From Salinivenus lutea (GTDB taxonomy: Bacteria; Bacteroidota; Rhodothermia; Rhodothermales; Salinibacteraceae), in the NCBI GenBank assembly GCA_002894685.1, contig NCRC01000022.1, positions 1 through 61,289 of the forward strand: DNA of 61,289 nt, given 5' to 3'. Numbering within the stretch: position 1 is the first letter of the stretch; the number at the start of each line of letters is the position of its first letter. The notes under the pieces were generated by a model. That model was not told the origin of the DNA, did no database searches, and saw only the letters and a program-made list of their open reading frames with translations. The position numbers and the translations under genes were made by a program. Shown here piece by piece: positions 28,563 through 61,289 of this stretch.

Positions 28563-28571
28563 TGTAATAGT

Positions 28572-36508: not shown

Positions 36509-37435
36509 CTACGATGCAGCGGCCGTGCCTCGTGTTCGTCGCACGAGGTTCAGAAGATACCGGCCATAGTCATTATTGTCCATCTCCCGCCCCATTCGCA
36601 CCACGTCCTCATCCCCAATCCAGCCCTGCCGCCAGGCAATCTCCTCCGGACAGCTGATCTTGAGGCCCTGGCGCTCCTCGATCGTCTGCACGAAGTTGGC
36701 CGCCTGCAGGAGCGAGCCGTGCGTGCCGGTGTCGAGCCACGCCATGCCGCGCCCCAGCGTCTCCACCCGCAGGCGTCCCTGCCGTAAATACTGGCGGTTC
36801 ACGTCCGTGATTTCCAGTTCGCCCCGATCCGACGGCTCCAGCCCCGCCGCAATGTCGACCACGTCCGCGTCGTAGAAGTAGAGCCCTGTGACGGCGTAGT
36901 TCGAGGCCGGATCGTCGGGTTTTTCCTCAATGGAGCGCGCCCGGCCCTCGTCGTCCACGTCGACCACGCCGTAGCGCTCGGGATCGTTTACGTAGTAGGC
37001 AAAGACCGTTCCTCCGTCCTCCCGGGCCGCCGCCCGCTGAAGCTGTGCGGAGAGCCCCTGCCCGTAGAAAATGTTGTCGCCGAGGATGAGGCACACGTCG
37101 TCCCCGTCGATAAAGTCCGCCCCGATGGTGAGGGCCTGCGCGATGCCCTTCGGCTCCGACTGCTCGGCGTAGCGGAGGGACAGGCCCCACTGGTGGCCGT
37201 CGCCCAGGAGGTCCTCAAAGCGGGGCAGGTCCCGAGGGGTCGAGATCACGAGCACCTCCCGGATGCCCGCCAGCATGAGGGTGGAGAGCGGGTAGTACAC
37301 CATCGGCTTGTCGTAGACCGGCAGCAGCTGCTTGCTCACCGCCCGGGTGGCCGGACGCAGTCGCGTGCCCGCCCCACCGGCGAGGAGAATGCCTTTCCGG
37401 GTGCGGGTGGCAGCACTGGGGGCGTCGTTCCTCAT
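36509..37435 (-). CDS. rmlA: Glucose-1-phosphate thymidylyltransferase
   Basis: The protein is 308 residues from ATG 37435 (a TTG 21 bp upstream at 37456 is also in frame). [20 protein letters not shown] is the nucleotide loop, [20 protein letters not shown] the substrate segment, [10 protein letters not shown] the metal aspartate, [20 protein letters not shown] the sugar-binding part. It is the short RmlA form (about 290 residues). It makes dTDP-glucose from dTTP and glucose-1-phosphate. It heads the rmlA-rmlC-rmlD set; rmlB is 23.5 kb away at the right edge. Confidence 0.96.
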
Positions 37436-37487
37436 CTCGTCAAAGCTGGTTTCCAATACGTAGAAGCGTCGTCAACGTGCGGGAGGA

Positions 37488-37522
37488 GTGAGGGGTGATG
37501 CGTGAGGCGTGAAGCGTAACGG
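37488..37522. repeat. Five tandem 7-bp units upstream of rmlA
   Basis: Units GTGAGGG, GTGATGC, GTGAGGC, GTGAAGC and GTAACGG run head to tail in the leader of rmlA, 53 bp before its ATG. Degenerate simple repeat; it could change promoter-to-start spacing if unit number varies. Confidence 0.6.
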
Positions 37523-37611
37523 ACACGTTGCTCCGTACGACCCTCCTCGCCCTTCACGTTTCCCCTATCAATTTGTCTCTCCCGTGGGTTGCGGGGGACA
37601 AGAGTATTGCC

Positions 37612-37789
37612 TCAATGACGGCGGACCACGGACGGCCGACCACCGAGAACCGCTCGATTCCGCGGAGGGATATTCCGTATTTCGTGTTGCGTATGTCGTG
37701 TTGCGTATTTGCTCTGTTTCTCAGCCCACGCACTACGCAATACGCACTACGCAATAAGCATTACGCAATACGCACTACGCACTACGCAA
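37612..37789. repeat. Direct repeat R1 (left copy), between lytTR gene and rmlA
   Basis: About 178 bp, almost the same as R2 at 60822-61001 and in the same orientation. Shared core: ATGACGGCGGACC, then GGACGGCCGACCACCGAGAA, CCGCTCGATT, GATATTCCGT, TTTCGTGTTGCGTAT and CTCTGTTTC. The distal part is three 14-bp units (CACTACGCAATACG and two variants, 37731-37772) plus a partial unit. R1 carries an extra TCGTGTTGCGTAT copy absent from R2. It ends 11 bp from the stop of the LytTR gene. Confidence 0.85.
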
Positions 37790-37799
37790 CCCCCACCCC

Positions 37800-38570
37800 T
37801 CAAAGCATCTGGATGTGCTCAATCAGGTCGTCCTGATAAGACGGACCGATGGGCAGCATCTTCCCGTCGATGATGAGGGTCGTGTCCTCAATGTCCTTGA
37901 CCTGATCGATGCGCACGATGTGCGACCGGTGAACGCGGACAAATTGGTTCGACGGCAGCTTGTCTTCCAGCTCCTTCATGGTGCTGTTGATCATGTACCG
38001 ATCCGATTCGGCCTGCACGAGCATGTAGTCGCCCTGTGCCTTGATCCACTGAATGTCTTCGAGGGACACTCGGATGAGACGACGCCCATCTTTCAAGAAG
38101 ACGTTCTCCGCGGACGTATCGGCGAGATGCGGCGACTCCGTCTTCTCCTCCGCGGCCGTCTCTTCAACAGCCGGCGGCGCGGGCTCGTCGTGGGACGCCC
38201 CGTCGGGGTCCAGCCGTTCGGACACCCGCTCGATGGCCATGAGAAAACGAGCGTACCGCACCGGCTTCACCAGATAGTCAACCACGTCCACCTCAAAGGC
38301 CTCGACGGCGTACTCCTCGTGGCCCGTCACCATCACGATGGCCGGCGGGTCGGACAGGCTTTCCACGAGTTCAAGCCCCGACATCTCCGGCATCTCCACG
38401 TCCAGCAGAATCAGGTCGACCTCCTTCTTCCGGAGAATGTTGGCCGCCTCGATGCCGTCCTCGCATGCCCCGAGCGCGTCGAGGTCAGCGTGGCGGTCAA
38501 CGTACTTGGAGAGGACGTCTTGTGAGGAGGGGTCGTCGTCGGCGATAAGGCAACGAAGGGGAGGCGGCAT
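37800..38570 (-). CDS. LytTR-family response regulator
   Basis: The protein is 256 residues from ATG 38570 (MPPPLRCLIADDD); an open extension upstream is not family-like. The receiver domain has acidic pocket D11-D13, phospho-acceptor D57 (LILLDVEMPE) and K102 (LVKP). After an acidic linker rich in Ala, Glu and Pro (about 125-155), a LytTR DNA-binding domain (about 160-250) shows the block FVRVHRSHIVRIDQVKDI. It probably controls polysaccharide genes. It is the last minus-strand gene of module B, next to repeat R1. No cognate LytS-type kinase is adjacent. Confidence 0.93.
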   Translation of the reverse strand: MPPPLRCLIADDDPSSQDVLSKYVDRHADLDALGACEDGIEAANILRKKEVDLILLDVEMPEMSGLELVESLSDPPAIVMVTGHEEYAVEAFEVDVVDYLVKPVRYARFLMAIERVSERLDPDGASHDEPAPPAVEETAAEEKTESPHLADTSAENVFLKDGRRLIRVSLEDIQWIKAQGDYMLVQAESDRYMINSTMKELEDKLPSNQFVRVHRSHIVRIDQVKDIEDTTLIIDGKMLPIGPSYQDDLIEHIQML

Positions 38571-38716
38571 GGGAAACGCGGCGCTGATAGGAAGGGCCCG
38601 GTCGCCCCGGACGGGGAGGCCCAAAGACCGAAATAAATTTTGTGTTGACACACTGTTATATCGGTACATAAGGAGCCCGTTGGAGTTTCGGGGGCGACGG
38701 ACGCCGTGTGCCCCTC
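38571..38716. promoter_or_regulatory. AT-rich leader of the LytTR gene
   Basis: Within GC-rich surroundings, about 38625-38672 is AT-rich (AAATAAATTTTGTG, TTATATCGGTACATAAG) and includes the short palindrome TGTGTTGACACA. The position, about 60-100 bp before the LytTR start, suggests its promoter and perhaps an operator. No consensus can be assigned. Confidence 0.35.
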
Positions 38717-39928
38717 CTACGCGGAGCCGGACAGGTTCGCGGCGGCCCGCTGCACAGGCGCCCAGGCGACGTCCTGCTGGTCACGGAGATAGCGGAGAAA
38801 GCCGCGGTAGACGGCGATGTTCATCACGCAGAAATAGAAGGGAGCGTAGAGGGCCGTCGGGCCGCGGGGGGCGTCGTGCGTAAGGGCCCCGTACGCGGCG
38901 AGTCCGTAGAAGGCGCCCTGCCCCGCCAGCAGCAGCGTGGCGGCCGTTCCTCCCCCCATCCCCACCAGCCCCCCGTTGACGACCAGTAGCACCGGCAGCA
39001 GGGCCGGTGCCAGGGTCCATCGCAGCACGCGGTGCGACACGAACTGAAAGGTAAGCGTGCCGTGCCGGACCGGGTTACACAGCTCGCGCAGGCGACCCAG
39101 GGCCTGAAATCCGCCCGCCACGATGCGCACCTTGCGTTGTATCTCGTCGGCCAGGGACGCGGACGGCCCCTCCGTGGCGTAGGCGTCGGGGGCGTACGCC
39201 ACCCGGTAGCCCCGAGCCGCCACCCGCAGCGTGAGCACAAAGTCGTCCAGAATCGTATCCTCGGGGATGGGCTCGAAGAGAACCGTGCGGACCGAAAACA
39301 GCTCCCCGGCCGCCCCGACGACCGAGTGGAGCGCGTCGTCCCAGCGCCGGAGGGCCGATTCGTACCGCCAGTAGAGCCCTTCACTCGCGCCCGACGCGTC
39401 GTCGGTCCCGGCGGCCCGCACCCGCTTTTCCCCGGCCACAGCCCCCACGGAGGGGTCCTGGTAGTGGCGCACAAGGTTGCGGAGCGCGTCGGCGTTGAGC
39501 AGGGCATTGGCATCGGAGAACACGACGAGGGGCGTCTCCACGTGCTCCATGCCCCGGTGCAGGGCCGCCATCTTGCCGGCCCGCTCGTCGCGGTGCAGGC
39601 ACTGCACGCCCGGCGCCGCCCGCAGGCGATCGGGCGTCGCGTCCGTCGAGCCGTCGGTCACAAACAGCACGGTGAGCTTCTCGCGGGGGTAGTTGAGCGC
39701 CCGGGTGTTTCCGAACTTCTCATCGATAACGTCGGCCTCGTTGTAAGCCGCGACCAGCAGCGTGACGGCCGGCAGGTCGGCCTCCGGAGGCACAGCGCGG
39801 TCGGGCCGCGGGCGCCACCACTGCCGCAGGCGCGAGAGGCCCCACACGAGCGGTGCATAGCCGACGTAGGTGTAAACGACCACGGCGAGGCCGGTCCAGA
39901 GAAAGCCGGGAAGAAGGGCGAGCACCAT
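38717..39928 (-). CDS. Membrane glycosyltransferase family 2
   Basis: The protein is 403 residues from ATG 39928, opening with a membrane helix (MVLALLPGFLWTGLAVVVYT). The GT-A domain shows TLLVAAYNEADVIDEKF, FVTDGSTDAT, VVFSDANALLN (DxD-like), PEDTILDDFVLTLRVAARGY (EDxxL/DD catalytic base region) and IQRKVRI at the QxxRW position. Two or three C-terminal helices follow (LAPALLPVLLVVNGGLVGMG onward). This architecture is that of processive or lipid-acceptor GT2 enzymes such as IcaA/PgaC relatives. Probable role: chain elongation in module B. It is 62 bp past the GT4 gene. Confidence 0.9.
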   Translation of the reverse strand: MVLALLPGFLWTGLAVVVYTYVGYAPLVWGLSRLRQWWRPRPDRAVPPEADLPAVTLLVAAYNEADVIDEKFGNTRALNYPREKLTVLFVTDGSTDATPDRLRAAPGVQCLHRDERAGKMAALHRGMEHVETPLVVFSDANALLNADALRNLVRHYQDPSVGAVAGEKRVRAAGTDDASGASEGLYWRYESALRRWDDALHSVVGAAGELFSVRTVLFEPIPEDTILDDFVLTLRVAARGYRVAYAPDAYATEGPSASLADEIQRKVRIVAGGFQALGRLRELCNPVRHGTLTFQFVSHRVLRWTLAPALLPVLLVVNGGLVGMGGGTAATLLLAGQGAFYGLAAYGALTHDAPRGPTALYAPFYFCVMNIAVYRGFLRYLRDQQDVAWAPVQRAAANLSGSA

Positions 39929-39990
39929 GAGACGGGGAGGGAGTTCTCTGCGGGAGTGAAGGAGAGTCTTCGGATGGGGCAATCCTGTCG

Positions 39991-41166
39991 TTAGGAAACC
40001 GCTGCCGTCTGTGCCGGCCCCGAAGCGGAGGGAGACCGGGCCACTTTTTCGTAGAGCGGAAGCAGCTCACTGGCGGTCCGGGTCCACGAAAAGGTTCGGG
40101 CTCGCTTTTGGCCCCGCTTTACAAGGTCGCGCCGCCGAGCCGGCGTCTCGGCCACCGTTCGGATGGCTTGTGCAATGGCGTCGGGATCTTGCGGGTCGAC
40201 CTGGAGGGCCGCATTGCCGGCCACTTCGGGCATCGCGGCGGCATTGGCCGTCACGACGGGGGTCCCGCACGCCATCGCCTCCAGGATGGGCAGGCCGAAG
40301 CTCTCCCGGAGGGACGGGTAGAGAAAGGCGGTGGCCTGGCTGTAGACCGCCGGCAGGTCGTCGTGGGCGATGTAGCCGGGCAGCCGAATCCGATCGATCA
40401 GGTCCGGGTGGCCGAGGGCGCGAAGGTGGTCGCGGAGCCGGTCGCGGTCGTAGTCGGCCACCACGAGGGGGCGCGGCGCCTCGGCCGTGACGGCGTACTG
40501 CGCGTAGGCCGCCACGACGCGGCGCATGTTCTTCTTCGGGTCTGTATTCCCAAAAAAGAGGAGGAACTCGTCCGGCAGGGTGTAGCGACGCCGCACCGCC
40601 CGAAGCGCGCTCGCATCGGTGACGGGGCCGAAGCGGTCGGACACGGCGTTGGGCACCACGGCGAGGCGGTCGTCCAGGCCCGGAAGGCGGTCGGCGATGC
40701 GGCCGCGCTCGTGGTCGGAGACCGTCACGACCGTATCGGCACGGCGAACTGCCGGCGGCACCACCCAGCGCCGGTAGACGGTGCCGAGGCGCTGGTACCA
40801 GGACCCGCCCTGCGGCCACAGGGCCGTGCCCTCGAGGAAGATGACGTCGTGGAGCGTCAGCAGGAGCGGCACCTCCAGGCGGAGCGGAGCCGTGTTGTTG
40901 GTGCAGTGCAGCAGGTCGACGTTCGCCCGGTGCGCGGCCCGCGGCAGGGCATGCTGCTCCCACGTCGGATACGACCAGCCGTCCACCCGATGCACCTCCA
41001 GGTTCGGATGCGGCGCCAGGCAGGGGTCCGGGCCGGGGCGCACGAACACGACGAACGTGTGCTCCGGCGCCGCGTCGACGAGGTGGCGGATGGTTTCGAG
41101 GGCCACGACGTCCATGCCGTGCTTGTTGGCTCGGAAGAGGCGCTGGGCTTCGATGCCGATGCGCAT
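39991..41166 (-). CDS. Glycosyltransferase family 4
   Basis: The protein is 391 residues. Starts MRIGIEAQRLFRANKHGMD, with the KHGMDVV acceptor loop. LTLHDVIFLEG, VVTVSDHERGRIADRLPG, LFFGNTDPKKNMRRVV and YPSLRESFGLPILEAMACGT (EX7E) are GT4 marks of the same subgroup as 17863-18906. It transfers one sugar from an NDP or GDP donor. It lies in a close run of minus-strand genes, 60 bp after the membrane GT2 (41227-42414). Confidence 0.92.
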   Translation of the reverse strand: MRIGIEAQRLFRANKHGMDVVALETIRHLVDAAPEHTFVVFVRPGPDPCLAPHPNLEVHRVDGWSYPTWEQHALPRAAHRANVDLLHCTNNTAPLRLEVPLLLTLHDVIFLEGTALWPQGGSWYQRLGTVYRRWVVPPAVRRADTVVTVSDHERGRIADRLPGLDDRLAVVPNAVSDRFGPVTDASALRAVRRRYTLPDEFLLFFGNTDPKKNMRRVVAAYAQYAVTAEAPRPLVVADYDRDRLRDHLRALGHPDLIDRIRLPGYIAHDDLPAVYSQATAFLYPSLRESFGLPILEAMACGTPVVTANAAAMPEVAGNAALQVDPQDPDAIAQAIRTVAETPARRRDLVKRGQKRARTFSWTRTASELLPLYEKVARSPSASGPAQTAAVS

Positions 41167-41226
41167 GGGACGGAGGAGCGTTGGGGACGGAAGATCGAGA
41201 ACGGGGCGGGCGGCTCGCGCAGAGGC

Positions 41227-42414
41227 TCAGGACGAGGGGGCCGACACCTCCGACGCCTGATGGGGCGTGGTGGTGTTGGGCGTGAGTCCTTCCCGGCTGC
41301 GGAGAAAGGCACGCAGCCCCAACCACACCGCGCGGGGCAGCGCGTGGAGAAGCGATAACACCGACAGGTCGTCGCGGTCGGCGGGGATGGCCGCGACCAG
41401 GCCCGCGGCCAGAAGCGCCGCGAGCCCCGCCCAGGCCCCGGCCCAGCCGACGCTGCCGGCCGCTGCGTTGGCGACCGCCAGGGCGGGAAGCATCGCCAGC
41501 AGAAGCGCGCGCGGCGGCAGCAACATCTGCGCCACCTTATCGACGTAGTCAAGCGGCCCGCCCTGAACGAGGACTCGGAGGCCTTCCGCGAGGTGCTGCC
41601 GGAGGTACTGAGCCTGCGCCCCGATCCAGCGTCGCCGCTGTTCCACAAAGACCGCGTCGGCGCGTACCTTCTCGTCGTACACCACCGCGTCGGGCGCATA
41701 CTCGATGCGGATTCCCGCCCGCAGCAGTCGCAACTCGAGGTCTTTGTCGAAGCCGTCGGGCGTGTCGATGGCCGCCATGGAGCGCCGAAATAGATCCATC
41801 TCCAGGGCCATGCCCGACCCAATCAACGCCGCCGAGAGGCCGAGCGCGCGGTGGCCTCGGCGGAAGATCTCGTTGTTAATCGCCTCACTCACCCCATCGA
41901 GGCGGGCGAGCGCCGTGTCGTGGTTCTTAGACACACGCCGCCCCTGCACCACACGCGCCCCGCCGGCCAGCGGACGGACCCCCTCTTCGAGGAAGCCCGG
42001 CGCCATGACGTTGTCTGCATCGAGCACTACGGCCGCGTCGTAGGCTGCCTCGGGCGTGGCGTCGATCCCGTGGCGAAGCCCCTTCACCTTCGTGCTCTCC
42101 TCCACGTCGAGGGGCACGACCGTGACGGGCAGTGCGTCCAGGGTTGCCATCGTGTCGGGTCGAAGCGTATCGGCGATGACAAAGACGTCGAAGGCGCCGG
42201 GATAGTCGTGATCGGCGGCGCGGCGAGCCGTCTCGACAATGACGGCGTCTTCCCTGTAGGCCGGAATGTAGACCGCCAGGCGCGGCCAGGAGGCGGGCCG
42301 AGGCGGCACATCCGGACGAGCGCCCCAGCGCGCGGCGGTGGCAAAAAGGACGAGGTAGGCCACGGCGCTGCCGGCACCGAGGAAGAGCAGTGCATTGAGG
42401 AGGGTCCAGAGCAT
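41227..42414 (-). CDS. Membrane glycosyltransferase family 2 with QxxRW motif
   Basis: The protein is 395 residues from ATG 42414 (MLWTLLNALLFLGAGSAVAY, a membrane helix). The frame continues open upstream to 43452 but only as an overlap with the sulfotransferase gene. YIPAYREDAVI, VIADTLRPDT, VVLDADNVM (DxD), GFDKDLELRLL and QRRRWIGAQ (Q-x-x-R-W) give the full GT2 catalytic set of processive synthases. C-terminal helices start at about residue 290. It sits between sulfotransferase and GT4. A beta-linked polymer backbone is possible but not shown. Confidence 0.9.
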   Translation of the reverse strand: MLWTLLNALLFLGAGSAVAYLVLFATAARWGARPDVPPRPASWPRLAVYIPAYREDAVIVETARRAADHDYPGAFDVFVIADTLRPDTMATLDALPVTVVPLDVEESTKVKGLRHGIDATPEAAYDAAVVLDADNVMAPGFLEEGVRPLAGGARVVQGRRVSKNHDTALARLDGVSEAINNEIFRRGHRALGLSAALIGSGMALEMDLFRRSMAAIDTPDGFDKDLELRLLRAGIRIEYAPDAVVYDEKVRADAVFVEQRRRWIGAQAQYLRQHLAEGLRVLVQGGPLDYVDKVAQMLLPPRALLLAMLPALAVANAAAGSVGWAGAWAGLAALLAAGLVAAIPADRDDLSVLSLLHALPRAVWLGLRAFLRSREGLTPNTTTPHQASEVSAPSS

Positions 42415-42455
42415 GGCGGACAACCGAAAAGGGGACAGTGGAGAGAGGGGCCGTG

Positions 42456-43262
42456 CTACGCGGGCACGTCGGACAGGAAACGAGCGTACGGTGACGCCGC
42501 CACCCAGCGGCGCACGTCGTCCGCATTGGTGGCCAGGTCCGACAGCCGTCGCGGGGTGGTCTTGCGCAGCGAGGTGTCGGGGGCGATGGGGTCGAGGTCG
42601 AGCCGGTCGGTCACGCGGCGAAGCGTGTCGGCGTGCCGGGCCGGGTCTTCCAGGTGCTCTTCGTAGGTGAGCGACAGGTGGGGCAGGCCGTCCAGCACCT
42701 CGCGTTCGAAGCGCCGAAGCTGCGCGCTGCCGTCCAGCCACCGGAAGAGGTCGTCGCGACGTACCTGGATGGCAGGGCGATCCGCGGCGTCCGCCTCGGT
42801 TTGGTGCCAGCGGCGGCGATGCTCGGCGTAGAGGCCGGAGAGGGCGTGCCGCAGCAGATTCCCCCGGCGCAGGTACAGGACCCGGTAGCCCCGCTCCACC
42901 AGCGCCTCCAGGAACGCCCGCCGGTCCGGCAGGTGGGTCTGCAGGCTCCGCAGCTGGTAGGAGAGCAGCTTGAAGCCGTAGACCGGAGTCTGGGTCTGCG
43001 CCTCGCACCGTGCTACCAGCCCCAGCGGGCGCAGGGCCCGGCGGCGTAGAATCTCGCCGTCGGCCTCGACCGCAGGGTGTGCATTCAGCATCGAGAGCAG
43101 CAACGTGGTGCCGGAGCGCCCGCGAGCGAAGAGGACAAAGCGGGTTTCGGGCGGCGCGGACCGGGCCGTCGGGCGGACGTACTGAGCAGCCTCGTAGGCA
43201 TAGCCCGCGTAGTAGGCGTTTAGGGTCTTGGCAAGCGAGGACCTCATGGGCGAAGATGTCAT
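42456..43262 (-). CDS. Sulfotransferase-family protein
   Basis: The protein is 268 residues from ATG 43262 (ATG 43247 is an alternative). RFVLFARGRSGTTLLLSMLN is the PAPS loop (GRSGTT), followed by HPAVEADGEILRRR. YRVLYLRRGNLLRHALSGLY matches the 3'-phosphate block with R and S. SLTYEEHLEDP is a conserved later motif. This is the Stf0/LPS-sulfotransferase style of enzyme. Expected substrate: a sugar in the module B glycan. It is 41 bp from the downstream GT2 and 26 bp from the beta-helix lipoprotein. Confidence 0.87.
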   Translation of the reverse strand: MTSSPMRSSLAKTLNAYYAGYAYEAAQYVRPTARSAPPETRFVLFARGRSGTTLLLSMLNAHPAVEADGEILRRRALRPLGLVARCEAQTQTPVYGFKLLSYQLRSLQTHLPDRRAFLEALVERGYRVLYLRRGNLLRHALSGLYAEHRRRWHQTEADAADRPAIQVRRDDLFRWLDGSAQLRRFEREVLDGLPHLSLTYEEHLEDPARHADTLRRVTDRLDLDPIAPDTSLRKTTPRRLSDLATNADDVRRWVAASPYARFLSDVPA

Positions 43263-43288
43263 GGGCGGCAAGGAATGAGTGGGGCGGG

Positions 43289-44557: not shown

Positions 44558-44607
44558 AGAGCGGTCGTTGGTCAAGAGGGCTGGGCCGGACGGGCCGGTA
44601 TGCGAAA

Positions 44608-45573
44608 TTAGGAGGAGGCACGAGCGGACGCGTTGGAGGGCTCGGGCACAGGCGGCGCCGGCCTGCGGGGGGCGTGTCTGGACGACGAGAGGTGGCAGGC
44701 GGCCCCTTGGGCCACGGCCTGTAGGCAGGCCCAGTCGCGCCGGGCCGCGTGTCGGGCGAGCCGACGGGGCACGGCCACGAGCCAGAAGAGGAGGGCGCTC
44801 AGCACAAAAGCCACGCCGCCCACGTTGCGGCGCAGGTAAAGCAGCCGGTTGCGCGTCATGTAGTAGGCCTTGAGCGGCGAGTGGCGCCCGACGGAGGCGG
44901 AGGCCTCGTGGCGTACGGTGGCGCGCGCCTCGTAGTAGACGGCGTGCCCGGCGCGCTTGGCCCGTTCGGTGAAGTCGTGCTCCTCGTAGTAGAGGAAGTA
45001 CTCTTCGCAGAGCAGGCCGACGTCCTCAAACACCGAGCGCCGGATCATCATGGCGGCCCCGTGGGCCAGATGCGTGCGCCCGGACTCGTCGAAGCGCCCG
45101 TCGTCCGGCGCCCCGTACCCGACGGTGTGCGAGCGCCCCGTGTACGGGTTGATGGGGGCCGACCCGGCGTACTGGATGCGCGCCGGCTCGCCGTCCCCTT
45201 CCCCGTCCGCAAACACAATCTTCGGGCTGGCAATGCCCACCGCCGGGCGCGCCTCCATCGTCGCCACGAGCCGCTCCAGCAGGCCCGGCTCCGGGAGCGC
45301 GTCGTTGTTGAGCAGGAGGATGTACCGCCCTCGGGCCTGGCGAAGGGCCACGTTGTTCCCCCCCGCAAAGCCGTCGTTGGTGTCGTTCGCGATCACCGTC
45401 ACCTCCGGAAACCGCTCCGCCAGCGCTGCGGCCTGCCCCTCCGCCGAAGCATTGTCGACCGCGAAGACTTCCACGTTCGGGTACGTCAGCGCTTGGAGCC
45501 GCTCCAGACACCGCGCGGTCATTTCCACTTCGTTGTAGTTGATCGTGATGACGGAGACCAGCGGGGGGAGCAT
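44608..45573 (-). CDS. Glycosyltransferase family 2 (rhamnosyltransferase-like)
   Basis: The protein is 321 residues. SVITINYNEVEMTARCLERL, FAVDNASAEG, GFAGGNNVALRQARGRYILL and LLNNDALPEPGLLERL (DxD equivalent NND) are typical of the WbbL/RfbN rhamnosyltransferase group. GAAMMIRRSVFEDVGLLCEE and YFLYYEEHDF follow as in that group. A hydrophobic helix (GGVAFVLSALLFWLVAV) sits near residue 260. Use of dTDP-rhamnose would tie module B to the rml genes on its two sides, but the donor is inference. Confidence 0.9.
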   Translation of the reverse strand: MLPPLVSVITINYNEVEMTARCLERLQALTYPNVEVFAVDNASAEGQAAALAERFPEVTVIANDTNDGFAGGNNVALRQARGRYILLLNNDALPEPGLLERLVATMEARPAVGIASPKIVFADGEGDGEPARIQYAGSAPINPYTGRSHTVGYGAPDDGRFDESGRTHLAHGAAMMIRRSVFEDVGLLCEEYFLYYEEHDFTERAKRAGHAVYYEARATVRHEASASVGRHSPLKAYYMTRNRLLYLRRNVGGVAFVLSALLFWLVAVPRRLARHAARRDWACLQAVAQGAACHLSSSRHAPRRPAPPVPEPSNASARASS

Positions 45574-48700: not shown

Positions 48701-48719
48701 GGGAGGGGCGGACGGATGC

Positions 48720-53166: not shown

Positions 53167-53227
53167 CGGCACCGGAGAACGCGAACATCGCGAACCGCTC
53201 CGTCTCGCTAGTCTCTTTTTTCTACGT

Positions 53228-54730
53228 GTGCAGATGCGCTCTCTTTCCTCCCCCATTGGATCGTCCTCCCCCGGCTGGACGACGAGTCTCCAACTCGCCC
53301 TCGTCGGCGGTGCGGCAATCGGGTTGGGAGGCGTATGCGCACGGCTGGGCCTACTGGGCCCGGTACTGCTGGTGGCCCTCGTGGGCGGGGGCGCCGTGGC
53401 GGCCCTCCTCCTGCAGCGGCCCCGACTCGGCTTCTGGGCCACCCTCCTCCTGGCCATTCTCGGGCTGGGCCTCAAGCGCTACGTCCCCGTTCCTATGGGC
53501 CTCACGGTCGATTCCCTCCTCGTGCTCACGTGGATCGGGCTCGTGGTGCCCGCGGCCGACCGCCTCGACTGGCACAAGGCCAACCGCCCGGCAACGTGGG
53601 CCGCTCTCCTTTGGATGGCCTACGTTGGGCTCCAGCTCTTCAACCCCGAAGCGCCCAGCCGCCTCGGCTGGGCCTATGCCATGCGCGGGGTGGGGCTTCA
53701 CTTCGCGCTCGTCGTTCCCCTGGTCCTCCTCCTGCTCGACCGGCGGCGCGATCTCGACTGGTTCCTCACGATCTGGTTTGTTCTTTCGATCCTGGGCACG
53801 CTCAACGGACTGCGGCAAAAGTTTATCGGCCTCGATCCGTTCGAGTGGCAGTGGCTGCGCGACGGCGCCGCCGTGCAACACCTCCTCTTTGGCCGGCTTC
53901 GGATCTTCTCGTTCTTCAGCGACGCCGGACAATTCGGCGCTGCCCAGGGCCACGTCGCTGTGGTGGCCGGCATCATGACCCTCGGACGGGAGCTCACGTG
54001 GCGCCGGCGCCTGTTCTACGGCCTCACGGCCCTCTGTGGCGTCATCGGGCTTTTCATTTCGGGCACCCGCGGGGCCATCGCGGTTCCCTTCCTCGGCGGG
54101 GTCACCTACCTCGTCCTCAGCAAAAACTGGCGCGCCATCCTTCTGGGCGTGGCGGCCATGGCGGTGGCGTACGGCTTCTTCATGTACACCTGGATTGGGA
54201 GCGGCGTGTACCAGATCCAGCGCTTTCGGATGGCCCTCCGAAACGGCAGCGACACGCCGTCGATGCAGGTGCGCCTGCGCAACCAGGAGCGACTGGCCCG
54301 CTACATGAAGGCCGCCCCCGTGCGCTACGCAATCGGCGGCGGCATCGGGAGCGTGGGCAGCTGGGGCCGGCGCTTCAGCCCGGACACGTGGCTCGCCCAG
54401 TTCCCGCCCGACAGCTGGTACGTCCGCCTCTGGGCCGAAACCGGCACGGTCGGACTCGGCCTCTACCTCGCCCTCTGGGCATTGCTGATGGGCTACGGCG
54501 CCGTGCGCGTCTGGCGCGTCCGTGATCCGGAGCTGCGCCAGGCCCTCATCGGGCTCCACGCCGGCATCATGGGCATCCTCATGGCCAGCTACGGAAATCA
54601 AGTGCTCGGCCAGCTGCCCACCGGCATCCTCGTGTACGCCAGCCTCGCGTACCTGTCGCTGGCGCCCCGCCTGGATGCCGCCGCCCCGGATGCATCTGCC
54701 TCGTCCGCCCCGCACACGCCCGCCCGCTGA
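53228..54730 (+). CDS. O-antigen ligase/polymerase-like protein (Wzy of module B)
   Basis: The protein is 500 residues. GTG at 53228 or ATG at 53234 starts it. About twelve hydrophobic helices; a large periplasmic loop (about residues 330-390) contains NQERLARYMKAAPVRYAIGG and the FPPDSWYVRLWAETG element of the O-antigen ligase family. It should polymerise or ligate module B's glycan. Sequence and length differ clearly from the locus A Wzy. It lies 61 bp after the TolC-like gene and 23 bp before the sulfotransferase. Confidence 0.88.
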   Translation: MQMRSLSSPIGSSSPGWTTSLQLALVGGAAIGLGGVCARLGLLGPVLLVALVGGGAVAALLLQRPRLGFWATLLLAILGLGLKRYVPVPMGLTVDSLLVLTWIGLVVPAADRLDWHKANRPATWAALLWMAYVGLQLFNPEAPSRLGWAYAMRGVGLHFALVVPLVLLLLDRRRDLDWFLTIWFVLSILGTLNGLRQKFIGLDPFEWQWLRDGAAVQHLLFGRLRIFSFFSDAGQFGAAQGHVAVVAGIMTLGRELTWRRRLFYGLTALCGVIGLFISGTRGAIAVPFLGGVTYLVLSKNWRAILLGVAAMAVAYGFFMYTWIGSGVYQIQRFRMALRNGSDTPSMQVRLRNQERLARYMKAAPVRYAIGGGIGSVGSWGRRFSPDTWLAQFPPDSWYVRLWAETGTVGLGLYLALWALLMGYGAVRVWRVRDPELRQALIGLHAGIMGILMASYGNQVLGQLPTGILVYASLAYLSLAPRLDAAAPDASASSAPHTPAR

Positions 54731-54753
54731 TCCTCCCTGCCTCCTTCCCTCGT

Positions 54754-55701
54754 ATGCCGTCCATGTCCCCCACCCCCTCGTTCCTGGTGATCGGCGCCGG
54801 CAAATCCGGCACCACCTCCGTCTGGCGCGCCCTCGACCAGCACCCGGAGGTGTTCATGAGCCCGGTGAAGGAGCCGAACTTTTTCGCGCTGAAGGGGGAG
54901 GATCTCTCCCCTGATGCCGACGACCCGGAACGCATGCACCACTACCCGGACGCCGTCACGACCTGGACCGACTACCAGGCCCTCTTCGACGCGGCCCCCG
55001 ACGGGGCGGTGACGGGAGAGGCCTCGCCCATGTACCTCTACGACCGGCGCGCACCCGCCAACATTTCGCATCATTTGGGGACGGACGTCCGCCTCGTGGC
55101 GTTTTTGCGCCAGCCGGCCGAGCGCCTCTTCTCGCGGTGGCAGCACCTGGTGGCGGAGGGCTACCCTCCGTCCGACCGTTTCCGGGACGCCCTCGACCGC
55201 TCGTCGATCTGGTGGCGGCGCCCCGACCTCGTGCCCGAAGGCTTCTACGGCGCCCACCTGCAGCGCTACCGCGACCGCTTTCCGCGCTCGCAGATCAAGG
55301 TGTTTCTGTTCGAGGACCTCGTCCGCCGGCCGGCGGAGACGATGGCGGCGCTCTACCGCTTCCTCGGCGTCGACCCCGCCTTCCGCCCCGACACGACGCC
55401 GCGCAACAGCTCGCACCGGCTGCAGCATCCGGCCCTGGCGTGGCTTCTGGGCCGGCACGGGGGACTCAAGACGACGCTCGCGGCGGCGCTGCCCGAAGTG
55501 TGGAACCGCCTGCGCCAGTCCCCGACGGCCCAGCGCCTGCTGGCGACGGTTCGGCGTCGCCTTGGACACAAGGAATCGCTTCCCGACGACCTGCGCCGCC
55601 GCATCACCCACGAGATCTACGGCGACGACCTGCGGCGCCTCGATGCCCTGCTGGGCCGCTCGCTCGACCACTGGTTTTCGCCGGACGCCGAGGCGGGATA
55701 A
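54754..55701 (+). CDS. Sulfotransferase (heparan sulfotransferase-like)
   Basis: The protein is 315 residues. FLVIGAGKSGTTSVWRALDQ (about 10-29) is the PAPS loop; HPEVFMSPVKEPNFFAL follows as in NDST/HS-type enzymes; LVAFLRQPAERLFSRWQHLV is the 3'-phosphate block (R and S). IKVFLFEDLVRRPAETMAAL ends the fold. The substrate is probably a sugar of the exported polymer. It is the third gene of the plus-strand run, 23 bp from wzy. It belongs to the same broad class as 26898-27839. Confidence 0.92.
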   Translation: MPSMSPTPSFLVIGAGKSGTTSVWRALDQHPEVFMSPVKEPNFFALKGEDLSPDADDPERMHHYPDAVTTWTDYQALFDAAPDGAVTGEASPMYLYDRRAPANISHHLGTDVRLVAFLRQPAERLFSRWQHLVAEGYPPSDRFRDALDRSSIWWRRPDLVPEGFYGAHLQRYRDRFPRSQIKVFLFEDLVRRPAETMAALYRFLGVDPAFRPDTTPRNSSHRLQHPALAWLLGRHGGLKTTLAAALPEVWNRLRQSPTAQRLLATVRRRLGHKESLPDDLRRRITHEIYGDDLRRLDALLGRSLDHWFSPDAEAG

Positions 55702-55749
55702 GGTCCCGCACCCCCTGCATATTTTTCATCCATAGGCAATCTCTGCGCC

Positions 55750-56148
55750 ATGTTTCTGCTTGCCGCTTCGTCCTCACCTGCAAGTCCTCCCAGTGCCTCC
55801 CTGCTTTTCGTAGACGACGACCCAGTCATGCAGTCCTTTGTATCGCACCTGCTGGCGCCCGACTACGACGTGGCCGTTGCCGGAAAGGCTGGGGCCGCCC
55901 TCGAGCGCCTGCGGCGACACCGCCCCGACGCCATTGTGCTCGATCTCGATCTTCCGGACACCGACGGCCATGCTCTACTGAAACGACTCCAGTCGAACGC
56001 GGACCTGGAGGGGATTCCCGTGATGGTGCTCTCCGGCCGCGACGGGAGCGATGAGCGCGTCACCTCACTTCGCTTGGGCGCCCAGGATCACCTCAACAAA
56101 CCGTTTAATCCGGAGGAGCTCCGCGAGCGACTGTCCTTGCTCCTGTAG
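55750..56148 (+). CDS. Single-domain response regulator (receiver only)
   Basis: The protein is 132 residues. ASLLFVDDDPVMQSFVSHLL holds the acidic pocket D22-D24; D65 in AIVLDLDLPDTDG is the phospho-acceptor; K117 in LNKPF closes the set. No output domain. It is 48 bp after the sulfotransferase on the same strand and converges on the hybrid kinase gene. It may be an intermediate in a phosphorelay with the Hpt of that kinase. Confidence 0.92.
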   Translation: MFLLAASSSPASPPSASLLFVDDDPVMQSFVSHLLAPDYDVAVAGKAGAALERLRRHRPDAIVLDLDLPDTDGHALLKRLQSNADLEGIPVMVLSGRDGSDERVTSLRLGAQDHLNKPFNPEELRERLSLLL

Positions 56149-56252: not shown

Positions 56253-59200
56253 TCAGCCCGTGTCAACGTCCTCAATATGCTCGTCGAGCGCCGCCAGAGT
56301 GTCGCGGGCCGCCTCGGCGATGGCGTCGAGCCGATCGGACGGGTAGGGAGGATCCGTGCGGTCGAGTGCCTGCGCAAGCCGGCCCAGGCGCTCCGCCCCC
56401 ACCAGCTGGGCCGCCGACTTCATGGAGTGAAACAGGTCCCCGAGGCGTTCATCGTCGCCGACGTCGCGGGCCGCCGCCAGATCGTCGACAAAGGCATCGG
56501 CCTGGTCGCGGAATGTGGTCGCCACGTCCCAGGCCGCCTCGGCCCCGCCCATGTTTTCGTAGAGAAACGACAGGTCGATGAGGGCATCCGGGGCGGCCTC
56601 GGCGGTGCCCCGGCCCAGGTGCTGCAAAACGGTGTCGTGCAACAGGTCCGGTGCAAAGGGCTTGGGCACAAAGGCGTCCATCCCGGCGGCGAAGGCCTCC
56701 TGCCGGTTTTCGGGGAGCATGGAAGCGGTAAGCGCAATGACCGGCACATCGTTCCCCTGCTCGCGGCGCAGACGACGCGTCGCCTCCAGCCCATCCAGGC
56801 GCGGCATCTGCACGTCCATCAGCACCAGGTCGTAGGGCGTCTCGTCCAGACGCGCCAGGGCCTCTACGCCATCGTCCGCCACGTCCACAACCGCGCCCCA
56901 TCCCTGCAGCAGGTCGCGCACCACCACCTGGTTGGTGGCGTTGTCGTCAACCACCAGCAGGTGCGTCCCATTCAGGCTGTCCTCGCGCTCGTCGGACGGG
57001 GCCCCCGCGCCGCCTTGAGCATCCGTCCCCTTCGAGATGCGCCCGCTCTCCCACTGCGACTCTGCGCCGTCGGTGGCAAAGGGAAAGCGGACGACAAAGA
57101 CGGATCCGTTTCCCGGGGTGCTTTGCAGGTCGATCTGCCCGTCCATCTGATTGATCAGCGCCTTCACAATGGCCAAGCCCAGCCCCGTCCCTTCACGCGC
57201 CTTCTCCGAGGCCGAGGGGGCCCGGTTGAAGCGGCCAAAGATGCGCTCCTGTTGATCCTCCGGAATCCCATCGCCGGTGTCCGCGACCCGAAACGCCACC
57301 CAGGTGGACTCGTCGGGAGAAGCGACATGGCCCTCCGGCGGAGCGCCCGCCTCGACGCGGAGCGTAACGTGGCCCTCGTCGGTGAACTTCAACGCATTGC
57401 TGATCAGGTTGGTGAGGATTTGTCCGACGCGCGTCGGGTCGCCCACAACCGTATCGGGGAGGTGCGGATCGGCCTCAACCCGGAAGTCGAGGCCCCGCTC
57501 CGTCGCCTTGCTGTGGAGCATGCGGTGGACGTGGCGGGCCAGGGCCGCCGGGCTGAAGGCGACCCGGTCCAGTTTCACCGCCCCCGCCTCCGCCTCCATC
57601 TTTGCAAAATCGAGCACCGTATTGAGCAGCGTCAGCAGCGTGTCCGCCGAGAAACGAATGCTCTGCAGGTATGAGCGCTGCGTGTCCGTCAGGTCGGTCC
57701 GCGCCAGCAGTTGGGCCATGCCGAGAACGGCGTTGAGAGGCGTGCGCACCTCGTGGCTCATGGTGGCCAGGAAGCGCTCCTTAGCCGCCAGCGACGCCTC
57801 CGCCTGCTCCTTGGCGTCGCGCAGTTGCATTTCCACCTGCTTGCGCTGCGTGATCTCTAGCCCATACCCTAGCACATTGATCACCGATCCGTCCCGCACC
57901 ACCGGCGTGACGAACCGAATGAAGTGCCGGGGATTTCCATTCTGGCCTTCGATCGTCTCCTCAAACTGCTCCGTCTCGCGGGTCTGAGCCACGCGCCGGA
58001 TGGTTTCCAGGCGCGTGCGGGCCGTCTCCACGTCGCGTCCCCGCATCCGGGCGTACTCCACATCCGTCATGCCGACGATCTGCTCGCGGTGCTCGGGATC
58101 GCTCACGGAGGTGGGGGTCACGTACTCGTAGCGGCCGTCCGGCCCAAAGATCGAAAGGTCGATGGGCATAGCGTTGAGCACCTGCTCGTAAAAGGTCTTC
58201 AGGTGCCGCAGCTCCTCCTCCGCCTCGCGCTGTTCGGTGACGTCGTGAATGACCGTTTGCGCCGCCGTCTCCCCTCTGTGCTCGATGGGCTGGGAATAGG
58301 AAACGATGACGCGCTCCTCTCCATCAAGGCGCTGAATGGTGTGCTCCATTGGCTCAGTCGGCTCGCCGCGGTCGATCTGCTTCTTGCGGGTGCGGAGCTG
58401 TTTCAGCACGTCGTCCTCGGTGGAAAAGTCCATCGTGGACCGGCCGATGAGCTCTTCCGGGGTCTCGGCGCCGAAGATGCGGGCCCCGGCCGGATTGATG
58501 TAGCGGATGACGCCGTCGACCGTAATCTGGATCGGGTCGCGGTTCGACTCCACGAGGCGGCGCCATCGTTCCTCGCTCCGACGCAGCTTTTGGCGGGCCT
58601 CTGCGCGGGCGGTAATGTCGTGGATGATGGAGAAGAGCATCGAGGTGCCGTGCACCTCAATGGGGGTGGAGTGGACCTCCACCGTGCGCACCTCCCCCGA
58701 GTTCAAGCGGTGGGGAAAGATGAACTGATTTTGCTCGCCTTCCTCCGCATCGGCCCGGGAGGTGGTCACCTCCTCAGAGGGCAGGTCGTTGATGTCCTGG
58801 ATGTGGAGCTGCGCCCACTCCTCGTCGGTGTAGCCGTAGAAGGTCTCGGCGGCGGCGTTTGCGTCGCGGATGGCCCCGCTCTCCGGATCAATCAGGAGCA
58901 TGGGGGCGCTGTGGCGCTCGAACATGGTGCGGAAACGGGCCTCGCTCTTCTGAAGAGCCTCCTCGGCCTGTTTGCGCTCGGTAATGTCGCGGGCGATGGC
59001 CTGCACCCCTGCGATGCCCCCGTCCTCTCGCACCAGTTGCACCTGCTGGCTGAGCCAGAGCTCGTCCCCGTCGGCGGTCACAATGGGAAACTCGCGGCGC
59101 GTGTCCGAAATCTCCTCCTCGATCTGATTCCGGTAGAAGCGCACCAGCCGCTCGCGGTGGTCGGGCCGCACCAGGGCCGTGAAAGGCTGCCCCACCAGTT

Positions 59201-60251
59201 CGTCTCGCACGTACCCCGTCGCTTCCGCTGCCACCGGGTTGACGTACGTGAAGCATCCGTCCGGATCACAGCGGTAGATGATGTCGCTGGCAGACTCAAC
59301 GAGGCGGCGGTAGGCGCGCTCGCGCTCCTGGAGGCGAGCATCGAGGCGGCGCTGCTCCGTAACGTCGCGGTACGTCCACAGGTGACCGGTCGTCTCGTCG
59401 TCGAGGTCCACGGGCACGTAGTCGCGCTCCAGGATGCGCCCGTCGTTGAGGTGGAGGGTTTCGGCGGAGACCGGCCGGCCGGCGGCCAGGATGGCGTCGA
59501 CCCGGTCGGTAAGGACCGTCGGGTCGGCAAAGAGGGATTTGGCAGCCTCGGCGGCCGCAATGCAGTCGGCCCCGGCGAGCGCCGCGGGGGGCTGCGGAAT
59601 CTCGAACAGGTCGCAGAAGGCCTGATTGACGAGCAGCAGTTCGCGCTCTTCGTTTTCGAGCAGGACCGCGTCCTGCAGGTTCTGAACGAGGGCCGAGAGC
59701 TGAGAACGGGGCTGGCGAAGGGCCTCTTCGGTGCGGACGCGACGCTCGACTTCGTCTTCGAGCTGCTGGTGCGAGCGGCCGCCGCGGAGGGCCTGTTCGA
59801 GCTTGGCGAGGACGCGGTCGAGCTGACGCAACTCGCGGGGCGGGAAGGCGGCCTCGCGCTGCGAGTCATGAAACTCTAGGACCCCGAGGTCCCCCAGGCG
59901 CACGGCCGCGAGGGCACCGCCGCGGGCCCCCCGCCCCGTTGTCAGGGACGCAAACGCGCCGTCGGACGCGTGGGTAGAGACAGGCGCATCGGCCCGCAGG
60001 CGCTGCACGAGGGCGTGATCGGCGGGCAGGGGGTCCGCTTCGACGTACGACGAGGGAGTGGCATGGAGCAGATGGAGGCCCGTCCTCTCCTCATTCCACC
60101 TCCAGACGGCCACGCCCTCCAGGTCCGTGCGTGCGGCCAGCGTTTCGGCAAATGCCGCCGCATTCTCAACCGGCTCCAGCGTCGCCCCCACGGAGAGCGA
60201 GAGCTCGTACAACAGGGAGAGCTGGTCGCTAATTTCGGATGGATCGGGCAT
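56253..60251 (-). CDS. Hybrid histidine kinase: GAF, multiple PAS, HisKA, HATPase, receiver, Hpt
   Basis: The protein is 1332 residues from ATG 60251 (MPDPSEISDQLSLLYELSLS). An N-terminal GAF-like domain (about 1-150) is followed by about five PAS/PAC units to about 790 (RDVTEQRRLDARLQ, ARDITERKQAEEALQ, IHDITARAEARQKL, IHDVTEQREAEEEL, LEITQRKQVEMQL). HisKA has H833 in MSHEVRTPLNAVLGM; HATPase shows NLISNALKFTDEG and GTGLGLAIVK. The receiver has D1146 (LVLMDVQMPRLDG) and the Hpt H1275 (LFHSMKSAAQLVG). No membrane helix, so it senses a cytoplasmic signal. It forms a complete phosphorelay to an unknown regulator. Confidence 0.95.
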   Translation of the reverse strand: MPDPSEISDQLSLLYELSLSVGATLEPVENAAAFAETLAARTDLEGVAVWRWNEERTGLHLLHATPSSYVEADPLPADHALVQRLRADAPVSTHASDGAFASLTTGRGARGGALAAVRLGDLGVLEFHDSQREAAFPPRELRQLDRVLAKLEQALRGGRSHQQLEDEVERRVRTEEALRQPRSQLSALVQNLQDAVLLENEERELLLVNQAFCDLFEIPQPPAALAGADCIAAAEAAKSLFADPTVLTDRVDAILAAGRPVSAETLHLNDGRILERDYVPVDLDDETTGHLWTYRDVTEQRRLDARLQERERAYRRLVESASDIIYRCDPDGCFTYVNPVAAEATGYVRDELVGQPFTALVRPDHRERLVRFYRNQIEEEISDTRREFPIVTADGDELWLSQQVQLVREDGGIAGVQAIARDITERKQAEEALQKSEARFRTMFERHSAPMLLIDPESGAIRDANAAAETFYGYTDEEWAQLHIQDINDLPSEEVTTSRADAEEGEQNQFIFPHRLNSGEVRTVEVHSTPIEVHGTSMLFSIIHDITARAEARQKLRRSEERWRRLVESNRDPIQITVDGVIRYINPAGARIFGAETPEELIGRSTMDFSTEDDVLKQLRTRKKQIDRGEPTEPMEHTIQRLDGEERVIVSYSQPIEHRGETAAQTVIHDVTEQREAEEELRHLKTFYEQVLNAMPIDLSIFGPDGRYEYVTPTSVSDPEHREQIVGMTDVEYARMRGRDVETARTRLETIRRVAQTRETEQFEETIEGQNGNPRHFIRFVTPVVRDGSVINVLGYGLEITQRKQVEMQLRDAKEQAEASLAAKERFLATMSHEVRTPLNAVLGMAQLLARTDLTDTQRSYLQSIRFSADTLLTLLNTVLDFAKMEAEAGAVKLDRVAFSPAALARHVHRMLHSKATERGLDFRVEADPHLPDTVVGDPTRVGQILTNLISNALKFTDEGHVTLRVEAGAPPEGHVASPDESTWVAFRVADTGDGIPEDQQERIFGRFNRAPSASEKAREGTGLGLAIVKALINQMDGQIDLQSTPGNGSVFVVRFPFATDGAESQWESGRISKGTDAQGGAGAPSDEREDSLNGTHLLVVDDNATNQVVVRDLLQGWGAVVDVADDGVEALARLDETPYDLVLMDVQMPRLDGLEATRRLRREQGNDVPVIALTASMLPENRQEAFAAGMDAFVPKPFAPDLLHDTVLQHLGRGTAEAAPDALIDLSFLYENMGGAEAAWDVATTFRDQADAFVDDLAAARDVGDDERLGDLFHSMKSAAQLVGAERLGRLAQALDRTDPPYPSDRLDAIAEAARDTLAALDEHIEDVDTG

Positions 60252-60389
60252 GGCAATGTGCGCTGGATTGCGTCCAAATCCCAAGCTGTGCACTGCGTCG
60301 GTCGTTCCGTCCCGGCAGGAGCCCCCAACGCCTGTGCACCCCGCCCTGCCTCCTGCTCAGGAGGGTCCAACCGAAGCCTGGACGGTGGT

Positions 60390-60760
60390 CTTGTTGCGCC
60401 ATTTGAGGTGCCCGGTTCCGTCGCGACCAAGTTCCGCAATGCGTAGTACGCCGGAGGGAGTGGGGTCGTTGCAACGCCTCCCGCCGCGACGGCCTCCAGC
60501 TCCTCGTCCATGCGGCCGGTGAGGGAGAACTGGCGAGAGACGCCGTCGACCACAAACACTGTCTTCGGGATGGCGTCGGGGAACCCGCCGTCGGCGTTGA
60601 CTTGGCCGGCAGTCTTGATGAGAGCGTCGGGGCCGCCTTTGAGCACATGCAGCCCTGCACGTTCGGAACGGACCCAGCACAGCGAGTACCGCCGTCGGAA
60701 GTACGGGCGATACGGGCATTGGGCGGCCGTTTCGGCAAGGACTTCCGGGGCGACCGGCAT
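60390..60760 (-). pseudogene. Unrecognised coding remnant between the hybrid kinase and repeat R2
   Basis: A minus frame from ATG 60760 reads MPVAPEVLAETAAQCPYRPY, then LKGGPDALIKTAGQVNADGG, AIPKTVFVVDGVSRQFSLTG and LPPAYYALRNLVATEPG. Composition is protein-like up to about 60390, then becomes Arg/Pro-rich and runs out of frame into the kinase gene, so a frameshift or truncation is likely. I do not recognise a family. It may be a decayed gene or a truncated small protein. The rest of 60252-60821 holds nothing else I can support. Confidence 0.35.
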
Positions 60761-60821
60761 CTTGCGGTAGGCTCCGATCGCACGGGCATAGGCGTTGGCG
60801 GCGGGTTCCCAGTTGAGGTGT

Positions 60822-61001
60822 TCGATGACGGCGGACCCCGGACGGCCGACCACCGAGAACCGCTCGATTCTGCGGAGAGATATTCCGTGTTTCGTGTTGC
60901 GTATTCGCTCTGTTTCCCAGCCCACGCAATACGCACTACGAAATACGCACTACGAAATACGCACTACGAAATACGCACTACGAAATACGCACTACGCACT
61001 A
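60822..61001. repeat. Direct repeat R2 (right copy), at the 3' end of rmlB
   Basis: About 180 bp, same orientation and nearly same sequence as R1 (37612-37789): TGACGGCGGACC, GGACGGCCGACCACCGAGAA, CCGCTCGATT, GATATTCCGTGTTTCGTGTT and TCTGTTTCCCAGCCCACGCA in order. It ends with four perfect 14-bp units CACTACGAAATACG at 60934-60989 and a partial unit that overlaps the rmlB stop codon. The repeat is not an insertion sequence: no terminal inverted repeats and no transposase. Confidence 0.85.
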
Positions 61002-61289
61002 CACCGCCTCCACCCAGTCGCGGTGCTCCACATACCAGTCGACCGTTCGGCGCAGCCCCTCCTCCAGCGTCACCTCAGGGGCCCAGTCCAACTCGTCTTC
61101 GATCTTCGACGCGTCGATGGCGTAGCGCCAGTCGTGGCCGGGCCGGTCCTCAACGAACGTAATGAGGTCATGATTGGAGCCCGGGCGGGCCTCGGGGCGC
61201 CGGGCATCGAGAAGGTCGCAAATCTGGCGGACGAGCGCAATATTCTCCCGCTCCTCGTCCCCGCCCACGTTGTACGTCTCGCCCACCCG
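60999..61289 (-). CDS. rmlB: dTDP-glucose 4,6-dehydratase, C-terminal part (cut by the window edge)
   Basis: The last 96 residues of an extended SDR, open through the right edge. GETYNVGGDEERENIALVRQ and ITFVEDRPGHDWRYAIDASK followed by ELDWAPEVTLEEGLRRTVDW are highly specific for RmlB. The enzyme makes dTDP-4-keto-6-deoxyglucose, the substrate of RmlC. Stop TAG at 60999-61001 lies within the end of repeat R2. In related genomes rmlB normally lies next to rmlA; here rmlA is 23.5 kb further in the direction of transcription. Confidence 0.93.
   Translation of the reverse strand, partial: RVGETYNVGGDEERENIALVRQICDLLDARRPEARPGSNHDLITFVEDRPGHDWRYAIDASKIEDELDWAPEVTLEEGLRRTVDWYVEHRDWVEAV

Follow-up and report, generated by a model that had tools for sequence, protein, structure and literature searches.

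A plasmid-type surface-polysaccharide locus between rmlB and rmlACD in Salinivenus lutea

How does a surface-polysaccharide locus come to stand inside the operon for thymidine diphosphate (dTDP)-rhamnose synthesis? The question is raised by contig NCRC01000022.1 (C15) of Salinivenus lutea, the whole of which (61,289 nucleotides; the window) was analysed, and which forms part of a genome of 3.55 Mb in 76 contigs. The original prediction was that a polysaccharide module of 23 kb separates rmlB from rmlACD, that a direct repeat lies at each junction, and that recombination between the repeats would allow the module to be lost or gained. The separation and the repeats (about 185 bp, one copy per junction) are both confirmed. 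The comparisons described here further indicate that the module was inserted into an ancestral rmlB-spacer-rmlACD operon and that its closest counterpart is a locus on plasmid pSR84 of Salinibacter ruber; it probably entered through recombination at rml homology. The features on which the argument turns are as follows.

35006-35908, minus strand: rmlD (profile match)
35912-36496, minus strand: rmlC (profile match)
36509-37435, minus strand: rmlA (profile match)
37436-37611, minus strand: ancestral rmlA leader, conserved with other chromosomes of the genus (alignment to G010 and G002)
37612-37796, minus strand: repeat R1, a copy of the rmlB-rmlA spacer (alignment), its first bases weakly resembling the 3' end of rmlB
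60822 to about 61001, minus strand: repeat R2, a truncated copy of the rmlB-rmlA spacer comprising a heptamer core and an 83-bp tail (alignment)
60999-61289, minus strand: last 96 codons of rmlB (rfbB), matching TIGR01181 positions 235-320

The split operon and its unsplit relatives

The window ends within rmlB, and the remaining N-terminal part of the gene is found at C24:4-723 (TIGR01181 positions 2-235). The two contigs share a 6-base overlap and were taken as adjacent, because joining them there gives an rmlB that aligns without gaps to that of G012, the nearest genome in the comparison set (presumably Salinivenus iranica CB7; rmlA 97% identical). The genome of S. lutea contains a single rmlA and a single copy of each rmlB piece, and likewise only one gene for a Wzc-like protein, which belongs to the module.

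The comparison set comprised 12 other genomes of the genus, nine of which carry rmlB and rmlA on one contig; the remaining three are G001 (rmlB cut at a contig end and no rmlA match), G005 (neither gene) and G011 (no rmlA match). In all nine testable genomes the gap between rmlB and rmlA is only 88-242 bp and both flanks are collinear with the window, while the 12-20 kb compared in each gave no BLAST match inside the module. That nine genomes out of nine keep the operon undivided, flanked collinearly and free of module matches in the stretches compared indicates that the insertion between rmlB and rmlACD is the derived state. The junction of rmlB, repeat and rmlA without the module, which the prediction led one to look for in a relative, is found in G012, with one copy of the repeat core. 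The leader that precedes rmlA in the window aligns with the rmlB-rmlA spacers of G010 (score 176; maximum 42 in 200 shuffles) and G002 (score 139; maximum 38), and shows no match to that of G012 (score 27; maximum 39 in 200 shuffles). Outside the genus the arrangement varies: rmlB adjoins rmlA twice in G015 (gaps of 75 and 81 bp), the two are separated by about 0.7-0.8 kb in G014 and G018, and the order is B-C-D-A in G016.

Two module proteins were compared genome-wide with the 12 other genus genomes, where the Wzc-like protein found nothing at E<=1e-20; the FIST fragment at the R2 end of the module found no match in 59 other genomes. The initiating sugar transferase finds partial matches (about residues 185-303; 115-119 residues at 51-52% identity) in three of the 12, as well as in a paralog in its own genome, and a weaker one near rml in G012 (40% over 115 residues).

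A plasmid counterpart of the module

Searched against 72,556 plasmids, the same FIST fragment has a single match, to a FIST-domain protein encoded on pSR84 of Salinibacter ruber M8. Alignment to this plasmid covers 21,199 of the 23,050 nucleotides of the module, in 12 collinear high-scoring segment pairs at 85.8% identity, and gene order and relative strand in the plasmid locus (NC_014157.1, about 38.7-63.1 kb) are the same as in the module. On pSR84 the genes run FIST, PAS hybrid kinase, response regulator, sulfotransferase, O-antigen ligase, TolC, sugar transferase and Wzc-like protein, then glycosyltransferase, flippase, glycosyltransferase, beta-helix protein, NodH, glycosyltransferases and LytTR; the LytTR gene is followed immediately by the plasmid's own rfbB, rfbA, rfbC and rfbD. 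The two loci differ in their setting: that of pSR84 is plasmid-borne, with an intact FIST gene and its own rfbBACD behind it, whereas in S. lutea the locus is chromosomal, with a truncated FIST gene, and lies inside the host's rml operon. The corresponding features of the module are:

60410-60833, minus strand: FIST_C-domain gene fragment, 5'-truncated and degraded (48.8% amino-acid identity to the pSR84 FIST protein)
56253-60293, minus strand: PAS-rich hybrid histidine kinase (profile match; pSR84 counterpart)
55750-56148, plus strand: response regulator receiver (profile match; pSR84 counterpart)
54754-55701, plus strand: sulfotransferase (92% amino-acid identity to pSR84)
53228-54730, plus strand: O-antigen ligase/polymerase, Wzy_C (86% amino-acid identity to pSR84)
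52330-53166, plus strand: TolC-like outer-membrane protein, OEP (profile match; pSR84 counterpart)
50925-51854, minus strand: initiating sugar transferase, Bac_transf (80% amino-acid identity to pSR84)
48720-50891, minus strand: Wzc-like chain-length determinant (81% amino-acid identity to pSR84)
47465-48823, minus strand: group 1 glycosyltransferase (profile match; pSR84 counterpart)
45760-47226, minus strand: Wzx-type flippase (profile match; pSR84 counterpart)
44608-45573, minus strand: family 2 glycosyltransferase (profile match; pSR84 counterpart)
43289-44575, minus strand: right-handed beta-helix protein (profile match; pSR84 counterpart)
41227-43452, minus strand: NodH-like sulfotransferase and family 2 glycosyltransferase in one open reading frame (ORF; pSR84 counterpart)
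39991-41166, minus strand: family 4 glycosyltransferase (profile match; pSR84 counterpart)
38717-39982, minus strand: family 2 glycosyltransferase (profile match; pSR84 counterpart)
37800-38669, minus strand: LytTR-family response regulator (on pSR84 directly before rfbB)

Module proteins are 60-92% identical to those of pSR84, except for the FIST fragment (49%) and the NodH-like half of the fused ORF (66%). The Wzc-like protein matches five of the 72,556 plasmids, pSR84 at 80.8% and the other four at only 25-30%. The chromosomal flanks are 74-83% identical to those of G002 and G010, and rmlACD is 76% identical at the nucleotide level to the plasmid's rfbACD; set against the 85.8% of the module, these values make the module more like pSR84 than one host chromosome is like another. 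On this comparison the module is classed as a Wzx/Wzy surface-polysaccharide locus of plasmid type, as on S. ruber pSR84.

Only the module appears to be present, not the whole plasmid. The search for plasmid backbone covered the rep/par side of pSR84 and record positions 14600-34500, leaving out 1-14599 and 82484-84340. The rep/par side (19.4 kb) gave one 56-bp match, on another contig, with 40 of 64 candidates scored; the second stretch gave no match on C15 among those listed, so that no backbone was found alongside the module. This bears on the possibility that the locus is an assembly chimera, in which a plasmid contig was joined to the chromosome through the repeat. In its favour, about 300 bp separate R2 from the end of the contig, which stops within rmlB. 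R1, however, lies deep in the contig, where it connects the module to rmlACD and the chromosomal leader, and its sequence is not the same as that of R2. The assembly contains next to nothing of the rep/par side, and it has one copy each of rmlA, the Wzc-like gene and the rmlB pieces. A chimera is accordingly considered highly improbable.

Spacer repeats, module edges and the route of entry

R2 starts directly after the rmlB stop codon, and R1 continues outward into the ancestral rmlA leader. The core of the repeat occurs once in the rmlB-rmlA spacer of G012 and once in the rfbB-rfbA spacer of pSR84. For these reasons R1 and R2 are identified, by position and alignment, as two copies of the rmlB-rmlA spacer. 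They are 94% identical over 83 nucleotides and 82% over a heptamer-rich stretch of 110 nucleotides, and their longest exact match is 32 bp. Where R1 runs on into the leader, R2 stops at the break in the FIST gene. A related tail on C1, shared with G012 at the same locus, continues beyond the R2 edge as R1 does, which argues that R2 is a truncated copy.

Only G012 has the core itself among the nine relatives whose spacers were read by eye; six have no core, and G002 and G010 have a short related stretch. These counts bear on the proposal that the module is ancestral at this place and was lost from the other members of the genus by deletion between repeats. The single core in G012 is what such a deletion would leave. 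The proposal would require a loss in all nine testable lineages, six of which show no core, and it sits poorly with a module that is closer to pSR84 than the chromosomes are to one another; we regard it as most improbable.

The heptamer core is dispersed beyond the two junctions. At least 19 matches, R1 and R2 included, occur in the S. lutea genome at E<=1e-3 (40 of 107 candidates scored), and 13, again with R1 and R2, at E<=1e-6. Matches over most of the 197-bp query are confined to R1 and R2, no other exceeding 84 bases, and among the matches listed the full-length element occurs only as R1 and R2. Core matches are found in 11 of the 13 genus genomes, S. lutea itself being counted. Heptamer-rich repeats of the TACGCAC/TACGAAA type are seen, for example, at G000 C6:73395-73473, C17:23284-23361 and C35:108588-108653. 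The core was also considered as a mobile element and set aside: the related copy on C1 is at the same place in G012, and no sign of transposition was seen.

Could the repeats nonetheless act as a switch? The prediction amounts to a circular module carrying one spacer-type repeat that enters and leaves by RecA-dependent recombination between repeats. Three points speak for it: each junction carries a direct repeat, the two sharing 32 bp exactly; G012 has an empty site with one repeat; and deletion would restore a plausible rmlB-spacer-rmlA order. On pSR84, however, the module is not bounded by the repeat: none is seen by eye in the 0.65 kb before the FIST gene, and the plasmid's copy is found past the module, in the interval from rfbB to rfbA. 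In S. lutea the R2 edge cuts the FIST gene, and R1 and R2 are only 82-94% alike, which argues that frequent exchange has not kept them uniform. A role for the repeats as a switch, or as the means of entry, is thus unsupported, R1 and R2 being spacer copies and the R2 edge coinciding with the FIST break. We consider a cassette of this kind unlikely; reversible RecA-dependent loss through the 32-bp match is possible on the sequence but likewise unsupported.

At the R2 edge of the module the spacer runs into the FIST gene midway, and what is left of that gene corresponds to the FIST_C part of the pSR84 protein, which has both FIST and FIST_C domains; the fragment's own Pfam FIST_C score is weak (E=0.21). 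A 12-bp microhomology, CGCCGTCATTGA, is identical in the pSR84 FIST gene and in the R1 spacer. It occurs once in bases 1-82483 of pSR84 and once in the window; in 200,000 first-order Markov draws, agreement at a fixed point never reached 10 bases. At R1, the 18 bases after the LytTR stop codon match the 3' end of rmlB at 13 positions, a level reached by 10 of 45,982 18-mers of the module. A relic of rmlB at this edge was entertained and is suggestive only, the match without the TAG end not being striking.

Near rfbD on pSR84, at record positions 33012-33800 (L226), lies a gene annotated as DUF3435 whose product scores best as a tyrosine recombinase of the Phage_integrase family. Site-specific integration by this enzyme was weighed as a route of entry. 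The edges show no common core in the right place, since the FIST join falls at the 12-mer and the LytTR end is on the opposite side of the spacer; no integrase match was found among the module ORFs scanned; and the edge repeats are gene spacers of about 185 bp, not the attachment-site repeats of an integrase-mediated island. Entry by this route therefore seems very unlikely.

The route that probably explains these features is recombination of a plasmid like pSR84, or of a fragment of one, at rml homology, with complementary rml copies then being lost and the repeats remaining as relics of two operons. It fits the facts that the plasmid's rmlBACD adjoins the module and that the R2 edge is the FIST break with its microhomology. 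We infer an order of events in which the plasmid, or a linear piece of it taken up by the cell, would recombine with the chromosomal rml operon, placing the module transiently between two rml copies in a merodiploid. A join or deletion between the spacer tail and the FIST gene at the 12-bp microhomology would remove rmlACD of the first copy, or never bring it in, and would exclude the plasmid backbone and the 5' half of the FIST gene as well. A second deletion, between the LytTR gene and the other spacer, would remove the redundant rmlB. The outcome would be one full rml set split around the module, with the two spacers left as R2 and R1. Entry of a whole circle followed by deletion, and entry of a linear fragment through one homologous and one microhomology join, are indistinguishable here. 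In homology-facilitated illegitimate recombination, one homologous arm is combined with one microhomology join. Such a process would give the R2/FIST junction.

Several observations weigh against this route. The spacer of pSR84 (142 bp) lacks the 83-bp tail common to R1 and R2, so either the tail comes from the chromosome or the true donor was not the same as pSR84. Diagnostic sites were tried as a guide to the parentage of the two cores and divide three against three, favouring neither assignment. The rmlB of the window is 81.3% identical to that of pSR84 and 87.9% to that of G012. Without its TAG end the presumed rmlB relic at R1 matches at 9 of 14 bases, a level reached by 331 of 45,985 positions. 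Positions 14600-34500 of the pSR84 record have at least 26 matches on other contigs, at 67-85% identity (40 of 225 candidates scored); the longest of those listed, on C40 (71-73%), correspond to the second PAS-kinase gene of pSR84, and two on C35 (70%) to csgH and the gene beside it. These matches are read as probable homologs, not as remains of the insertion event. Finally, only one plasmid was found with the order module-rmlBACD, which therefore may not be the ancestral plasmid state.

The rmlB gene (60999-61289 together with its part on C24) is uneven in its likeness to G012: three 300-base steps are 77, 96 and 88% identical and the flanks on either side about 97%, which suggests local recombination. 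The unevenness was not used as a trace of the plasmid: in 100-base steps only the first two are closer to pSR84 than to G012 (87 versus 79% and 76 versus 68%), the third is 76 versus 83%, and none after it is closer to the plasmid.

Exchange between pSR84 and a chromosomal island has already been reported. PMC6060240 reports a 30-kb region of 93% identity to pSR84 in the island fGI-1 of S. ruber SP38; plasmids are proposed there as vehicles into genomic islands, and plasmid-island exchange as a driver of surface-polymer variation in Salinibacter. The SP38 island thus resembles the present locus in carrying pSR84 DNA in a chromosome, with plasmid integration as the proposed cause. Unlike the present locus, it is described in the passages considered without naming rml, a split operon or duplicated spacers, and the word rhamnose is absent from the paper's main text. 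The general process is thus already known; for rml docking, duplicated spacers and complementary loss, a literature search only partly aimed at rml found no description.

On this reading, the scars at the two edges show at the level of single bases a way for a surface-polymer locus to pass from a plasmid into a chromosome and stay there: sugar-nucleotide genes that the plasmid shares with the chromosome supply the homology, and surplus copies are subsequently discarded. Phages target surface polymers. It is tempting, though for the moment doubtful, to generalise that polymer-locus plasmids with a spare rmlBACD in salt-loving Rhodothermota use the rml operon, which is widespread, as a homology landing pad. 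If so, a temporary double operon followed by complementary loss would lock the module between rmlB and rmlACD, and tie the new polymer to the cell's only supply of dTDP-rhamnose. Were rml a recurrent docking site, a split rml operon would serve to mark such an event.

Gene content and neighbouring features

The prediction of a polysaccharide system holds for the initiating sugar transferase, Wzx, Wzy and the chain-length protein, all of which are present; for a Wza-type exporter, no Poly_export match was found among the module ORFs scanned, and the only candidate exporter is the TolC-like OEP protein. The predicted strand layout stands in part: rmlB and rmlACD are on the minus strand, and the module part 52330-56148 is actually on the plus strand. 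Minus-strand ORFs at 51979-55671 were examined as genes and gave no family matches, and the plus-strand genes were preferred. The ORF at 41227-43452 encodes 741 amino acids where pSR84 has two genes; its NodH-like half has no Pfam match and takes its label from the pSR84 annotation. Guanine-plus-cytosine (GC) content in the module is near that of the flanks (0.63-0.71), and composition gives no foreign signal.

The transferase, Wzx, Wzy, Wzc-like protein, glycosyltransferases and sulfotransferases together point to a sulfated surface polysaccharide, and the position of the module beside rml, both on the plasmid and here, suggests rhamnose as a constituent. The product is thus probably a sulfated, rhamnose-containing surface polymer with its own signalling genes, a composition that we infer from gene content.

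Distant relatives of the Wzc-like protein occur in five of the other 113 genomes of the order that were searched. In four of these Rhodothermales (G038, G083, G084 and G094) it lies in a Wzx/Wzy cluster that, in every case, also holds a sugar transferase, Wzx, Wzy, a TolC-like protein, a hybrid kinase and LytTR; several glycosyltransferases are present in three. The cluster proteins are about 25-63% identical to those of the module, and LytTR stands next to the kinase, unlike in the module. The stretches fetched (22-38 kb each) gave no match to the rml queries. The fifth relative is on a contig of only 4.8 kb (G018).

Two further features were noted around the rml operon. Directly upstream of rmlB in G012 (L162:11955-12802) is a nucleotidyltransferase and HepT-like pair of toxin-antitoxin type, on a stretch that is absent from the genome of S. 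lutea. Beyond rmlD in the window lies a block of low GC content (about 13581-31747; GC 0.42-0.65, lowest at 25-29 kb), the flanking sequences of which are about 0.2 kb apart in G006 and G010; from its composition and this comparison it appears to be a further island, distinct from the module, beside the rml operon.

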